Shown one piece after another: positions 32,097 to 38,774 of a stretch of DNA of 64,000 nucleotides (the stretch's first letter is position 1; every line of letters begins with the position of its first letter). Origin of the DNA: an uncultured Clostridia bacterium (GTDB taxonomy: Bacteria > Bacillota > Clostridia > Christensenellales > Borkfalkiaceae); assembly GCA_947629665.1 (NCBI GenBank), contig CANREJ010000003.1, positions 1-64,000 on the forward strand, written 5' to 3'. Under the pieces are notes generated by a model, which saw nothing but the letters and a program-made list of their open reading frames with translations, searched no databases and was not told the DNA's origin. The translations under genes and the position numbers were made by a program.

Positions 32097-32792
32097 TTAA
32101 TCGCCGTAAATCTGCTTAAAGCGTTCCGCGGTGATGAGTACCTTGCGGGGCTTGTTGCCCAGAGCTTCACTTATATAGCCCATTGATTCCATCCAATCGA
32201 TGACCTTGCAGGACATTATATAACCTATGGGGAAGTTGCGCTGAACAAGCGATACGCTTGCTTCGCCTTTCTGTATGCAGAGCTTTAACGCCTTTATGCC
32301 AAATTCCACAACGGACATCTCCCTGTCCCTGAATCTGGGCGCGGAGTCCTCCTCTCCGTCATCGTCCTCGTCATCGTCCTCATATTCAAAGTCGTCCCCG
32401 TCGTCCTCTTCCTGCATGTTTTGCAATACACTGCGCATGGCAAAGCGTTGCTCTTCGATGGGCCGGCCTGCGGTGCGCTTTTTTAACTCATCCATCATTT
32501 CCGACAAAGATTTTGTGCGGGGAAGCTCGCCCGTCTCCTTTTTTGCGGGCTGTCCGGCGGGTTCCTCCTTGGGTTGCAACTCCTTTAAAAGCAAATTCCT
32601 GTCGCCCGTGAAAATATAATTTTCGTCGTCCGCAGGCTTTATTTGTCCGCGCTCTTCAAGCGATTTAAGGTAGGGTTGCATCTGGGCGTAGCGGCAATCC
32701 GCGTCGTAAATTACGTCGAATATGTTTACGGGCAGACCGTCCGCCGAACGCTCCAAAAAACTTCTCAATATCTTTATTTCAATGCTATCCAT
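32097..32792 (-). CDS. Stand-alone FtsK-gamma-like winged-helix protein with acidic linker
   Basis: C-terminal VEFGIKALKLCIQKGEASVSLVQRNFPIGYIMSCKVIDWMESMGYISEALGNKPRKVLIT resembles FtsK/SpoIIIE gamma domain; linker EEDDGDDFEYEDDDEDDDGEED; start trimmed to MDSIEIKIL. Confidence 0.75.
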   Translation of the reverse strand: MDSIEIKILRSFLERSADGLPVNIFDVIYDADCRYAQMQPYLKSLEERGQIKPADDENYIFTGDRNLLLKELQPKEEPAGQPAKKETGELPRTKSLSEMMDELKKRTAGRPIEEQRFAMRSVLQNMQEEDDGDDFEYEDDDEDDDGEEDSAPRFRDREMSVVEFGIKALKLCIQKGEASVSLVQRNFPIGYIMSCKVIDWMESMGYISEALGNKPRKVLITAERFKQIYGD

Positions 32793-32794
32793 CG

Positions 32795-34375
32795 TTAAAA
32801 CCCTCTCCCTATCCAACTGCTGTTATAGTGGTATTCGGGCGCTTTGAAGTTTATGCCCGACGCAGAACCGCCCTTTTCCGCGGGATATGCCCTGTATTCG
32901 GGGCAATCGAAGTAGAGTTCGAAGCTCCCCTTCATGGGCATATGGTTGTACACCGTTACATACACGTCGCCCGCCTTTACGCGGTGCATGAGCTCGTCCT
33001 CGGATACGACGTACGCTTCAACATACTTTATGTTGCCCTGCAAAAAGTGCGCGGGGTCGGGAATTACATGTCTGCCTATCTGCTCCTTTACCGCCTTTGC
33101 AGTGTTTATATCGTTTGTGCCGAGAAACAGAGTTAAGTTGCAGTTGTTGCGTATCTGCCTGGCAACGCCTTCCGAATAGGTTGTTTCAAGCTGGGTATAG
33201 TCCTGCACGATTGCAGTTATAAACATATTCATGCCCCTGCCCACACTGAATATGGTGGGGTATATGTCGTCCTTTTGCAACGTGGGAAACTCGTCGAGAA
33301 AGAATTGGACGGGCACGGCGAGAGGTTCGCCGCTCTCCACGGACTTCCTTTTTAGAACATCGAGAGACTTAACTATGTATTGGTTTACAAAGCCGCGCAT
33401 CCGTTTGTCGGTTATGTCATAGGTGAGGAATATCACTTGGGGGCTGTCGCCGAGGGTGGATATGTCGAGATTGTCCGCCAAAGTGAGGCAACGTATGTCG
33501 TGATAGCTGTAATCGTTTAAATAGCTCTCCACAAGTTGCAGATAGCATTGCCTGGTGGTGGGAGCGTCGTGCATTATTCCGCGCACGTACCGCCATACCA
33601 TGGAATCGGATTCGCGGCGGGAGAAAAAGCCGTAGTCTTCAAACTTGCCGGCGCAGTCGAACCGGCTGAACACCTCGGATATCGCCTCGAAATTTATCTG
33701 CGAGGGCAAAACGCGCTTCCTGCCCGTTCTGCGTTCGGTTTCGCGGGTCAGGAACATGTCCTCAAACAGCCCCACGGCTATGCCGTAGATAAAGCCGCGG
33801 GCGCCTTCATCCCACGATATATCCTTGGTTGAGCGCACGGGGAAGAGCTTATCGAAGAGTATTTTAAGCTCGGACAGCGCTTCGCCGCGGATAGAGTCGG
33901 CTTCCTCCGGGTTTAACTCCGCCTTTTGATATTTTTTGGCTATGTCGGTTATGGGATTGAAGAGTATCTGCGATCTTTCGGGGTGAATGAAGTCCATATA
34001 TTTGACGTTCTGTTCGCCGTACACTTCCTTTAACCGCGACGCCGTGTTGCGGTAGAGTTCGCCCTTGACGTCGGCTATTATCGCCGAAGTTTTGCCGTCG
34101 AGATTGAAAAGACAGTTTTCGAGATAGCGCATGGATTTGCCGCAACCCGTACTGCCCGCAACCAGCGCATGGCACAGACCGCGCTGTTGCAATATTGTAA
34201 GTTCGCCCGACTCGTTCCTGTATGCCGACACGGGCATACCCACTTCGTGCGGGGTGAGGGCTTTATATTCGCAGAAGCCCTCCTCCTTTGCTATGTCGGA
34301 AGCGGCGAGGAGGACGGTCTGTTCCCCCGGCACGCCGCTTGCGCACTTTTTTATAAGATTTATGTTGTACTTCAT
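32795..34375 (-). CDS. VirD4/TraG-like coupling ATPase lacking an obvious N-terminal TM segment
   Basis: Walker A VAGSTGCGKSM, IIADVKGELYRNTASRLKE, DPNPI-type FNPITDI, Walker B FFLDEFPTL, FSVGRGMNMFITAIVQDYTQLETTYSE. Confidence 0.85.
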   Translation of the reverse strand: MKYNINLIKKCASGVPGEQTVLLAASDIAKEEGFCEYKALTPHEVGMPVSAYRNESGELTILQQRGLCHALVAGSTGCGKSMRYLENCLFNLDGKTSAIIADVKGELYRNTASRLKEVYGEQNVKYMDFIHPERSQILFNPITDIAKKYQKAELNPEEADSIRGEALSELKILFDKLFPVRSTKDISWDEGARGFIYGIAVGLFEDMFLTRETERRTGRKRVLPSQINFEAISEVFSRFDCAGKFEDYGFFSRRESDSMVWRYVRGIMHDAPTTRQCYLQLVESYLNDYSYHDIRCLTLADNLDISTLGDSPQVIFLTYDITDKRMRGFVNQYIVKSLDVLKRKSVESGEPLAVPVQFFLDEFPTLQKDDIYPTIFSVGRGMNMFITAIVQDYTQLETTYSEGVARQIRNNCNLTLFLGTNDINTAKAVKEQIGRHVIPDPAHFLQGNIKYVEAYVVSEDELMHRVKAGDVYVTVYNHMPMKGSFELYFDCPEYRAYPAEKGGSASGINFKAPEYHYNSSWIGRGF

Positions 34376-34385
34376 TTTTCACCTC

Positions 34386-35036
34386 CTAAAAACCTATGGG
34401 GCGTTTGCCTTTGAACGGCGTTCCCTTGCAGTTGCCGTAGCGCTTTGACAGCGTTTTTAAAACGTCGGGGCGGACAAGCATTTCGGGGGTGCCGCCGAGG
34501 ACAGACATTACCTCCTCCCGCGATTGCGGCTTTATGTTCAAGAGCAACAAACCCGCGTCACTGTTATTTTCTTCGTTCAATTCCCTCATAAGGATATTGA
34601 CGGCAATTTCCCTGCCCTCGTCCTCGCCGTTTAAATACAGCACCGCGAGCGCATATACAACGGAGGCAACGCGGTCCTTTTCGTAGTAGTTGGAGAGCGT
34701 GCGGAGCCTGCCGCTCTTTATGGAGTTTTCGCCGAAAATATCGTTTATTTTTAAGAGCGCGTGCGCTTTTACGTCTATAACCGCCTGCTCGCGCCCGGAT
34801 ACGCCAAAACCGTTATCCTGCCCAAAGCCGCTGAGATAATTTTTGTAGATTTCTATATCGCCCAGCGACGAAAGTTCTCCAAATATGGGATTTTGTAATA
34901 TTTCGGCATACTCTTTTGCCTTTTTGGGGTCCACGCCGAAGCAATCTGCCAAAAACTTCCAGCTTGAATTGTTTGCTTCGCATACTTCCTGCATCATAAA
35001 ATTATAATACAATGCTCTTTCCGTTATGTAGTTCAT
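34386..35036 (-). CDS. Hypothetical, predominantly helical protein; first gene of VirD4/FtsK-gamma operon
   Basis: 216-aa ORF, 10 bp upstream of the VirD4-like gene; no recognised family. Confidence 0.65.
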   Translation of the reverse strand: MNYITERALYYNFMMQEVCEANNSSWKFLADCFGVDPKKAKEYAEILQNPIFGELSSLGDIEIYKNYLSGFGQDNGFGVSGREQAVIDVKAHALLKINDIFGENSIKSGRLRTLSNYYEKDRVASVVYALAVLYLNGEDEGREIAVNILMRELNEENNSDAGLLLLNIKPQSREEVMSVLGGTPEMLVRPDVLKTLSKRYGNCKGTPFKGKRPIGF

Positions 35037-35211: not shown

Positions 35212-35529
35212 TCAACGCGCAAAAACAACCACCTCGCCCATTGCCTTTTCGGATAGGTCGCAATAATACAAAATATATTCGAGTTGGGGTTTGCTTTTGC
35301 CGTTTTCCCAATTGACTATTCGGTTTTCGGGTACTTTGAACACTTGTGCGAGTTCGGCTTGACTTATGAGATGATCCATATCGAACTTACAGTCGGCACA
35401 TTCGCCTGAGCAATCACTGCTTAAAATATGGCAGACATTACGCCTGAGAGTAATATCGTCCCGACGCAATAATTTTAAATTTACGGCTGTTTTTGCCCAG
35501 TCAATGTATTTGATCTTTTTGGTTTCCAT
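35212..35529 (-). CDS. Small XRE-type HTH regulator with N-terminal Cys cluster
   Basis: CHILSSDCSGECADC followed by HTH SQAELAQVFKVPENRIVNWENGKSKPQLEYIL; start trimmed to METKK. Confidence 0.7.
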   Translation of the reverse strand: METKKIKYIDWAKTAVNLKLLRRDDITLRRNVCHILSSDCSGECADCKFDMDHLISQAELAQVFKVPENRIVNWENGKSKPQLEYILYYCDLSEKAMGEVVVFAR

Positions 35530-35609
35530 AGTCCACCGCAGACAAATTTTTTGATATTTTACCACAATTCGCCGTCGTTTGCAAATAAAAAAGACGTATT
35601 TTATAATAT

Positions 35610-35813: not shown

Positions 35814-38774
35814 ATGAATAAATTTAAAAAGACGCTTTTGATAATTTTGGGGGCATGTTGCGCCCTGGCGTGCGTTGCGGCAACGGCTTGCAGCGCCACG
35901 CAAAACTGGCGTGTGCCGCATAACGGTGTTGTGAACAACGGCACAATCGACGCCAACAATCCCAACGGCGATCTGCCTTTTTATTATCCCGAAGGCACCG
36001 ACCCCGACGACTATTTGGACAAGGAGAACGCCTACACCATAACCACCGTGAGCATGGGCGGGCTTTCCATAAGCGGCATGCGCATAACCATTAAGCAGAA
36101 GGGCGAGACGGTGATTGAAGGTATTTCCTTAAACGGCGGAGCCGTGTTTGGAATTCCCGCAGGCGAATACGATATAGAGTATTCAAATTTGCCGCTGGGT
36201 TACAGCGAGGACGAAACCGGAACCGTTAAGCACCTTACCGCGGACAATTTACAGGTTAAAACGGCGTTCACCTCCTCCGTTATAAGGACGGAAACGCCCG
36301 CGGGTAAAACTTACGCCCTTGGCGACGTTATGTATAATTTCAGCGTTACCGACGCCGACGGCAATACTATGAACCTTGCGGAAATTTTGCAGACGAAGCG
36401 CGCCGTGCTTTTGAACTTCTGGGCTATACGCTGTATGCCTTGCAGGGCGGAGTTCCCCATAATTGACACGGTTTATGCCGGTTACAAGGACAAATTGGAA
36501 GTGATTGCCATTTCCAACGAGGACAGCAATGCGAGCATTAAAAAATTTAAAGAGCAATACGGACACAGCTTTTTTATGGCGCACGACAGCGCGGGAGTTT
36601 TTAACCGCTTTAACACGGAATCCATACCCGTTTCGGTTATGGTCGACCGCTACGGCGTTGTGTCATACTACAACGTAGGCTCCGAAACGAGCGAAACAAA
36701 ATGGGACAACATTTTCAGCACCTTTACAGCGGACAACTACGAGCAGAGCATACAACAGGGCAGCGGCGGCGAAACGGGCAGCGAAGATCCCGTAGCTCCC
36801 CCCGCGGACGCCGAAATGCCTGCCGACGCCGCGCTTAACGGAGCCTTCCTTGACGCGTCTATGGACGGAACCGAACTGCACTATTACGAACCCGCGGAAG
36901 ATACCCGCGACGGAAAATTCAATTGGCCGTTTACGGTGAACGACAGCGATTCCGACGGCGCATGTATCTCTCCCTCCAACGTCGGCACGGACAATACGTG
37001 GTCCATAATGTACACCGACGTGGAACTCAATCCCGACCAAACGCTTTCGGTGGACGTCAAAGTTCAGGGCGATCCCGACGATATTTTGTATATAGTTTTA
37101 AACAACTCCGCCGATTTGTCCTTTACCTATTCGGGCAATACCAACGGCTGGCAGACGGTTGAGCTTTTTACCTCGACGAGATTGACTTCCATCAACCTGA
37201 CGATATTTTACATTAAGAGCGTTTTGGGCAGTCCCGATAACGAGTTTGTAGGTTTAAAGAATTTAAAGATTTTTGAAACGGACTATTACAGCTCCACCAG
37301 CCCTTTGGACGTGCGCACGGAAGCCGTTAGAATCGAAAACGATGAACCCGTGTACCCCACGGTCTATAAGGGGCAGGACGGATTCTACCGTATTCAACAG
37401 GGCGCGGAAGAAAACGAAACTACCGACCCCTGGTTGTTTGCCGATATACTTTCGGAATCGCTGTGGTCAGATAGGCACCTTGCCGATTACAATCTTGTGA
37501 ACGTGGACAACGGACAGAGCGTTGAACTTGTAAAGTCGCTTTATTTGATTTCGTTCTGGCACCCCGATTTCGGCAACGGCGGAGCGGCAGACTTTAAATA
37601 CGGACTGACCGAAACGGATACCGTGATTGACTGCTATTGGGTACAGGACGGCACAAATTATATGTCCGCCGTGGACGAAACGCTTGCAAACGCGCTTAAA
37701 GCCTTTGCGGCGCGCGCCTCCACCCACATTGCGGAATACAAAGGCGGGCATAACGAAAATACCTGGCTGGAACTTTGCAGTTACTACCGCACGCTCGGCG
37801 GCGATCACACCGCAGATGGGCATACCTGCCTTGTACGCCAAAATATGGGCGTAGGTAAAACTCTCAATTACGCAATCGAAGCTACGCAGGGCGATAAATT
37901 TACGGTTGATTTGCGGATAGCGCAAAAGAAGAACCGCGCGGGCGGAGTGTTCTATAAGTTCACCGCTCCCCAAACGGGCGTGTATGTGTTCACCTCCTAC
38001 CGCCCCTTCTCGGAGGAAGACCCCATAGACCCCAACCTACTCATCTGGCCCGCGGGCTCAAACGCATATAACGACAGTATAATTTTGGAACAGTCGGACT
38101 GCCATAGCTACGAAAGATTTGCAAACAACGACGACAATAAATTTACAAATAACTTCCAGGCATATTTGTATTTAACCGAAGGCACAACAATTTATCCGCA
38201 GTTTACGGTGGCTTCGGGCGATATTTCGCAGTTGGTAGACCAATATATATCTTCCGGCATAGACGTTACGTACCAGGTGGATATTAAATATCTCGGCGAG
38301 AGCAAGCATGTGCTTACGCTTGCCGCAACGGACGGAATGTGGGACTCCATGACGGAATATGCAGGCATAGATGTTGTTGCCGATGGCGCCGAGGCAAGTG
38401 ATTTATATTATCACGTATTGCCCGACAACAGCTACGGTTCGGTGATATATATAGACTTCATCCATCCCAACTATGTTGGCCTTACAAGCCTTAAAGATTT
38501 GATAGACCGCGGCGTGTTTGACCTTTCCGAATCGGGCGGCGGAAACTTTACGGCAAAAATGAACGAGTATTGGCAGACGGCAACAAGCAAATCCCAGGAC
38601 GACCCCACCTACGGCATGTGCGAGGCATCTGTGGAATTGGTACAAATTTTGAGCGAGGGACTCAGGGTAACTTCCGATGACGGCGACGGGCTTGAATCGG
38701 GACTTTGGAAGGCGTTTGCCTATTACTGGCAATACTACGGCAGCACCGCCTGGGAACCCGTTGAAGAGGCTTAA
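35814..38774 (+). CDS. Large lipoprotein with N-terminal beta-sandwich, TlpA-type thioredoxin domain and C-terminal repeated surface modules
   Basis: Signal peptide/lipobox ATAC; VLLNFWAIRCMPCRAEFPIIDTV (CMPC); 986 aa. Confidence 0.82.
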   Translation: MNKFKKTLLIILGACCALACVAATACSATQNWRVPHNGVVNNGTIDANNPNGDLPFYYPEGTDPDDYLDKENAYTITTVSMGGLSISGMRITIKQKGETVIEGISLNGGAVFGIPAGEYDIEYSNLPLGYSEDETGTVKHLTADNLQVKTAFTSSVIRTETPAGKTYALGDVMYNFSVTDADGNTMNLAEILQTKRAVLLNFWAIRCMPCRAEFPIIDTVYAGYKDKLEVIAISNEDSNASIKKFKEQYGHSFFMAHDSAGVFNRFNTESIPVSVMVDRYGVVSYYNVGSETSETKWDNIFSTFTADNYEQSIQQGSGGETGSEDPVAPPADAEMPADAALNGAFLDASMDGTELHYYEPAEDTRDGKFNWPFTVNDSDSDGACISPSNVGTDNTWSIMYTDVELNPDQTLSVDVKVQGDPDDILYIVLNNSADLSFTYSGNTNGWQTVELFTSTRLTSINLTIFYIKSVLGSPDNEFVGLKNLKIFETDYYSSTSPLDVRTEAVRIENDEPVYPTVYKGQDGFYRIQQGAEENETTDPWLFADILSESLWSDRHLADYNLVNVDNGQSVELVKSLYLISFWHPDFGNGGAADFKYGLTETDTVIDCYWVQDGTNYMSAVDETLANALKAFAARASTHIAEYKGGHNENTWLELCSYYRTLGGDHTADGHTCLVRQNMGVGKTLNYAIEATQGDKFTVDLRIAQKKNRAGGVFYKFTAPQTGVYVFTSYRPFSEEDPIDPNLLIWPAGSNAYNDSIILEQSDCHSYERFANNDDNKFTNNFQAYLYLTEGTTIYPQFTVASGDISQLVDQYISSGIDVTYQVDIKYLGESKHVLTLAATDGMWDSMTEYAGIDVVADGAEASDLYYHVLPDNSYGSVIYIDFIHPNYVGLTSLKDLIDRGVFDLSESGGGNFTAKMNEYWQTATSKSQDDPTYGMCEASVELVQILSEGLRVTSDDGDGLESGLWKAFAYYWQYYGSTAWEPVEEA

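Follow-up and report, generated by a model that had tools for sequence, protein, structure and literature searches.

A VirD4-type ATPase operon in Clostridia with a candidate ClpP-docking partner and an FtsK-gamma protein

Introduction

VirD4-type ATPases have their known roles in secretion and conjugation. To our knowledge, all motor-bearing partners of the ClpP protease are AAA+ Clp rings, e.g. ClpX, the 'IGF' tripeptide of which docks on ClpP. The docking-loop consensus of the Clp ATPases is (L/I/V)-G-(F/L) (PMC8745299). There is precedent for an FtsK gamma domain in the service of another motor, in that the phage small terminases Sam46 and Sam112 have borrowed a gamma domain from a host FtsK and use it, on its own, to read DNA (PMC8190038). 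A 2020 eLife survey of conflict systems mentions FtsK effector domains, but not ClpP or VirD4 (PMC7159879).

Here we describe a trio of genes encoding a helical partner, a VirD4-type ATPase and a winged-helix protein with an FtsK-gamma domain, present in the window, i.e. the whole 64-kb stretch of DNA analysed, which comes from an uncultured Clostridia bacterium. We regard the trio as a pared-down representative of an undescribed operon family, (clpP)–partner–VirD4-type ATPase–winged-helix reader. Searches of the openly licensed PMC literature found neither papers joining ClpP, VirD4 and FtsK, nor a precedent for a VirD4-type ATPase feeding ClpP. No studied machine is known to combine a DNA-pump-type ATPase, a DNA reader and ClpP, as this operon family appears to do.

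Results

Gene layout and surroundings

The open reading frames of the window place the partner, ATPase and third protein in three closely packed minus-strand genes (Table 1), as the original prediction had it, including the two nucleotides between the last two genes, which are read as TAA-CG-ATG from the ATPase stop to the third-protein start. The mechanically called frame of the third protein has a TTG start at 32816; its length is counted from the ATG. The HTH_3 (XRE) protein is a recurrent upstream neighbour, present at 18 loci, and is a possible regulator; an orthologue lies upstream of the trio of genome G064. Both the window and G064 trios are surrounded by housekeeping genes, rather than by a defence island, the G064 trio being flanked by ribosomal/elongation-factor genes and recG; at the trio of genome G596 the hydroxyacid dehydrogenase is once more the downstream neighbour.

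Table 1. Features of the window locus, in coordinates of the 64-kb stretch
Feature	Coordinates	Strand	Details and basis
Partner	34386..35036	(-)	216 aa; all-helical; family profile
Partner C-terminal Ile-Gly-Phe	34389..34397	(-)	Candidate ClpP-docking tail; disorder predicted, residues 209-216
VirD4/TraG-type ATPase without TM segment	32795..34375	(-)	526 aa; Walker A and B intact; Pfam
Third protein (winged helix, acidic linker, FtsK-gamma)	32097..32792	(-)	231 aa from ATG
N-terminal winged helix of third protein	32568..32792	(-)	HTH_45, Sso10a, five-way alignment
D/E-rich linker of third protein	32331..32420	(-)	Sequence
FtsK-gamma winged helix of third protein	32130..32294	(-)	PF09397; tree and alignment
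Small HTH_3 (XRE) protein	35212..35565	(-)	HTH_3, 4.9e-5

Several further features of the window genome and of related loci were observed. Divergent from the window trio, a gene at 35814-38774 encodes a secreted 986-aa multidomain protein with a TlpA/thioredoxin-like region, and a similar long gene adjoins the G596 trio (L095:11027-14032). The end of contig C3 of the window genome (G000; about 67.8 kb, L006:3819-4334) carries a near-perfect direct repeat of ~180 bp, which yields repeated overlapping frames on both strands. An island on contig C6 of the same genome (L004:667-13206) encodes VWA, Ser/Thr-kinase-like, PP2C-like and TIR/BspA-like proteins, a calcineurin-like phosphatase, a HAD protein, a tyrosine integrase and a stand-alone gamma protein (L004:10110-10772), the N terminus of which weakly resembles PRPP-synthetase/nucleotide-handling proteins; the HTH neighbour is common to this island and to the trio loci. 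A tandem array of three VWA (TerY-like) genes comes after the trio of genome G099 (L040:10326-12562), the first being nearly identical to a VWA gene of the C6 island. Coiled-coil proteins that by eye resemble the Snf7/PspA (ESCRT-III-like) type lie within a few kb of several trios (L128:4300-5970 and the regions of L111:5320-5595 and L122:118-2664).

The VirD4-type ATPase

The window ATPase matches the Pfam families T4SS-DNA_transf (2e-32) and TraG-D_C (7e-19), as well as the NCBIfam CD1115 VirD4 model, the latter with 1.8e-39 and 136 bits, under the cut-off of 250. It has intact Walker A (GSTGCGKS) and Walker B (FFLDE) motifs, the residues of which are invariant across the ATPases of the family; a PDB sequence search with it as query gave no match. 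A membrane-type hydrophobic stretch is absent, the highest 19-residue hydropathy being 1.07 in the window protein and 1.76 in the family. Assignment to the VirD4/TraG type and absence of a TM segment, both proposed from the sequence beforehand, are thus borne out.

The earlier statement that no relaxase, VirB4 or other T4SS gene occurs in the window likewise extends to the window genome, in which searches found no relaxase, no VirB4-like ATPase (AAA_10) and no second VirD4. A relaxase turned up in one of 23 trio genomes, and the searches gave no true VirB4-like match. Origin from a conjugative element was rejected on the negative relaxase and VirB4 searches. Origin from a phage was rejected, there being no relative on a viral contig and the phage matches, 22-34% identical, resembling ordinary coupling proteins; the plasmid matches are also ordinary coupling proteins, at about 22-26%.

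The partner and its C-terminal tail

The helical partner is the most informative of the three subunits. It occurs in a short form of ~216 aa, the type in the window, and a long form of ~525-550 aa. The window partner consists of the helical half and tail only and, in agreement with the original prediction, its AlphaFold2 model is all-helical (pLDDT 88.5); Foldseek found no confident match for the short-partner model. In the long partners Sel1-like helices make up the N-terminal half and are combined with a Lon-type AAA+ domain (model pLDDT 90.9; Foldseek 1e-8 for the C-terminal half against Lon AAA+), from which the P-loop is missing in 83 of 85 cases. Since the window partner is without the AAA+ half, the VirD4-type ATPase would be the sole remaining motor there, if the complex is ATP-driven.

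Partners of both forms end in a tail of the type [I/Y/F/L]-G-[F/Y], frequently followed by GG, in an end that is predicted to be disordered in both long and short models. A relaxed pattern, [LIVMFY]G[FLY] in the 25 C-terminal residues, is present in 88 of 91 distinct partners, compared with 56 of 530 control genes (11%), and the strict (L/I/V)-G-(F/L) pattern in 35 of 91 compared with 25 of 530, counts to be read with the shortness of a tripeptide motif in mind.

Linkage to clpP

The gene next upstream of the long partner is clpP, with a gap of -16 to +79 nt, at 33 GTDB loci and at 11 loci of a second genome set, some of which are shared with the GTDB loci; among long-form loci with sufficient upstream sequence, 41 of 68 are linked in this way. 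No clpP adjoins the trio in the window or at any other short-form locus, so a link to ClpP in the short forms depends on the tail and on the relatives. The linked ClpPs match Pfam CLP_protease and have an intact active site, the Ser-His-Asp triad being kept; they are without the N-terminal axial-loop segment and, in most copies, Gln replaces Tyr at the LYINSPGG strand. Six genomes with a linked ClpP have two ClpPs, and all other genomes tested have one.

The first residue of the tail is aromatic at 38 of 41 loci with clpP and non-aromatic at 31 of 42 loci without it. In the ATPase tree tail class and ClpP linkage each change at least 10 times, with about 4-5 concordant and 0 discordant independent contrasts, and a phylogeny-corrected test misses 0.05. 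The covariation of tail type with ClpP linkage after correction for descent is thus suggestive, but under-powered.

The third protein and its gamma domain

The C-terminal domain of the window third protein is, as predicted, a true FtsK-gamma domain, matching PF09397 at residues 167-221 (1e-16, 62 bits) and E. coli FtsK-gamma structures in the PDB; the acidic linker that had been proposed to precede it is also present. This gamma domain has neither an FtsK motor of its own nor a membrane anchor, and the host genome also encodes an FtsK proper, of 1078 aa, and a further gamma protein that stands alone. The N terminus, on which the original prediction was silent, is a winged helix with weak Sso10a/HTH_45-like matches (HTH_45 4.6e-4, below the cut-off; Sso10a 1e-4). 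Such a winged helix is present in every third protein read, and is the sole part recognisable in all members of the family.

The remainder of the third protein varies. A gamma domain is present in 17 of 41 third proteins, leaving 24 without; it stands alone in the window and G596 proteins, is in mid-protein in that of G064, together with a DUF1828-like module (a reader's call, with no Pfam match), and in G099 and relatives is joined to a complete FtsK motor, beside the VirD4-type ATPase (FtsK_SpoIIIE 5e-36 in G099). In one case (G541) a Clp_N domain (1.2e-15) takes the place of gamma, and some third proteins have none of gamma, FtsK motor, DUF1828-like module and Clp_N. Given this modularity, a fixed arrangement of motor plus orienting subunit is not general in the family.

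In a tree of 26 gamma domains, built on a short domain and with some long branches, the genus g1 trio gammas cluster with the gammas of g1 FtsKs (98/95); in genus g9 the trio gammas fall mostly among g9 FtsKs. A single common clade of all trio gammas was rejected (p-AU 0.006). The recognition helix is also host-like, i.e. GY-I/L-xxCxI/VIDWME-like in g1 and mostly GYNHAGKIIEWME-like in g9. This grouping by genus makes the trio gammas look captured from host FtsK, and from the match of the recognition helices the trio gamma should read the polar sequences of its host; the trio thus probably reads the sequences that are recognised by the FtsK of its host. Genus g9 also has further stand-alone or FtsK-adjacent gamma proteins, in open frames of 499 and 263 aa (L240, genome G652, contig C33; L238, genome G667, contig C12), and in the Clostridia family of the window genome gamma seems to be in free use for reading DNA.

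Distribution of the operon family

Of the 398 genomes searched from the family of the window genome, 47 match partner profile A1, some of the matches being weak and partial. Among 391 genomes of the class, the partner profile found the window genome and one weak partial match only; the class and phylum samples gave nothing convincing outside the family with partner profiles; the second of these scans, run without a positive control, shows rarity only weakly. A contig scan with a single ATPase sequence gave no match, whereas an alignment-based scan of GTDB found further relatives, among them MAGs labelled Oscillospiraceae, Christensenellaceae, Bacilli, Mollicutes and Anaeroplasma; at GC-rich loci the frames of the relatives were read in six frames. 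At complete loci the order is always partner, VirD4-type ATPase, winged-helix protein, with frames that overlap or nearly touch. The operon recurs in over 40 genomes of one Clostridia family, and the order is kept in about 40 genomes, which puts the trio far from a chance assembly and supports it as a conserved unit.

Discussion

We propose that the trio builds a ClpP-coupled motor that is addressed to DNA. The flexible IGF tail of the partner would dock in the hydrophobic pockets of ClpP, which in the window species would be the cell's single housekeeping ClpP (G000:C10:11369-11905). A VirD4-type hexamer is proposed as the motor because the Lon-like AAA+ domain of the partner is dead in the long forms and lost in the short ones; it may unfold proteins and feed them to ClpP, or run on DNA, stripping proteins from it into ClpP. 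The winged-helix protein would place the complex on the chromosome, with gamma reading the same polar sequences as host FtsK. The docking of the partner to ClpP, taken as a step by itself, is probable; for the chain as a whole we estimate a probability of roughly 0.5. A more specific proposal, in which ClpP is driven by a VirD4/FtsK-type (RecA-fold) ATPase that is loaded on the chromosome via the captured gamma, which would couple the destruction of proteins to the translocation of DNA, is put forward tentatively.

If correct, a gene family joining ClpP, an IGF-tailed adaptor, a VirD4-type motor and a DNA reader would represent a new kind of machine, and would show a DNA pump turned to the removal of proteins on DNA. 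The novelty applies to the gene set; should the tail not bind ClpP, the family would instead be an undescribed VirD4-type operon. The apparent repeated capture of gamma from host FtsK by an unrelated operon is of interest by itself, and suggests a reader of host chromosome polarity.

Alternatively, the complex could serve immunity or the stress response. On sensing foreign or damaged DNA, ClpP, motor and reader would together set off the proteolysis of a target or effector, with ClpP acting conditionally, as in conflict systems. The patchy presence of the operon, its highly variable third protein, and neighbours at some loci, including TIR_2, AAA, calcineurin-like phosphatase and HAD proteins and the VWA genes of G099, are in keeping with such a role, and gamma could mark the chromosome as self. 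By contrast, no effector-like gene is constant, the window and G064 copies are in housekeeping surroundings, and the PADLOC models gave no specific match with the trio components, the ATPase being weakly similar to mad8 and HerA (a long third protein has similarity to the FtsK-like SspH). We regard this possibility as rather unlikely.

We judge it also unlikely, and slightly more so, that the trio is a split FtsK-like DNA pump, as originally predicted, in which DNA is pumped by the VirD4-type ATPase, the separate gamma protein takes care of loading and orientation at KOPS/SRS-like sites, and the role of the helical partner is structural, with no proteolysis. Much of that prediction stands, i.e. 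a VirD4-type motor and a true gamma, tightly linked in a conserved unit with no T4SS, and the host-like recognition helix and the absence of clpP beside short-form loci agree with it. What does not stand is gamma as the obligatory orienting half, because most third proteins are without it, relatives have a second, complete FtsK motor, and Clp_N or unrelated modules occur elsewhere. A simple pump also leaves unexplained the conservation of the IGF-type tail and the ClpP linkage; the docking-like tripeptide, together with the adjacency of clpP in long-form operons, favours proteolysis.

That the ATPase is left over from an integrative or mobilizable element, or serves one as an accessory coupling protein, with a T4SS supplied in trans, is largely refuted and very improbable, since, although conjugative coupling proteins are its nearest ATPase families, relaxase and VirB4 are missing as described above, the TM segment is absent, gene order is kept across deep divergence, and the families most often met in the flanks do not include those of integrases, relaxases or the T4SS.

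The proposed ClpP-coupled machine differs from each of the systems that it resembles. The trio ATPase has the ATPase fold, Walker motifs and TraG-D_C region of the VirD4/TraG coupling proteins (CD1115 family), but is without their N-terminal TM segment and without relaxase, VirB4 and VirB6, and its gene stands in a fixed operon beside those of the IGF-tailed partner and the winged-helix protein. With FtsK/SpoIIIE the window trio shares the gamma domain, and the third protein of some relatives the whole motor plus gamma; by contrast with FtsK/SpoIIIE, the window gamma is separate from any motor or membrane anchor of its own, in a host that keeps its 1078-aa FtsK.

The likeness to ClpXP/ClpCP is in ClpP, the (L/I/V)-G-(F/L)-type tripeptide and, in one third protein, Clp_N; however, it is a C-terminal tail that carries the tripeptide, and not a loop of an AAA+ domain, the sole motor with intact Walker motifs is the VirD4-type ATPase, and the linked ClpPs are without the axial-loop segment. 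With the P-loop missing in nearly all long partners and no AAA+ domain in the window, the partner is not a Clp AAA+ unfoldase that combines an intact Walker A with the tripeptide. Similarly, the C-terminal half of the long partners has the fold of the Lon AAA+ module, but usually no P-loop, and no Lon protease domain, and the short partner of the window has no AAA+ domain at all. Sam46 and Sam112 belong to phage packaging and have no ClpP or VirD4 link, but in them, as proposed for the trio, a gamma domain derived from host FtsK serves another motor.
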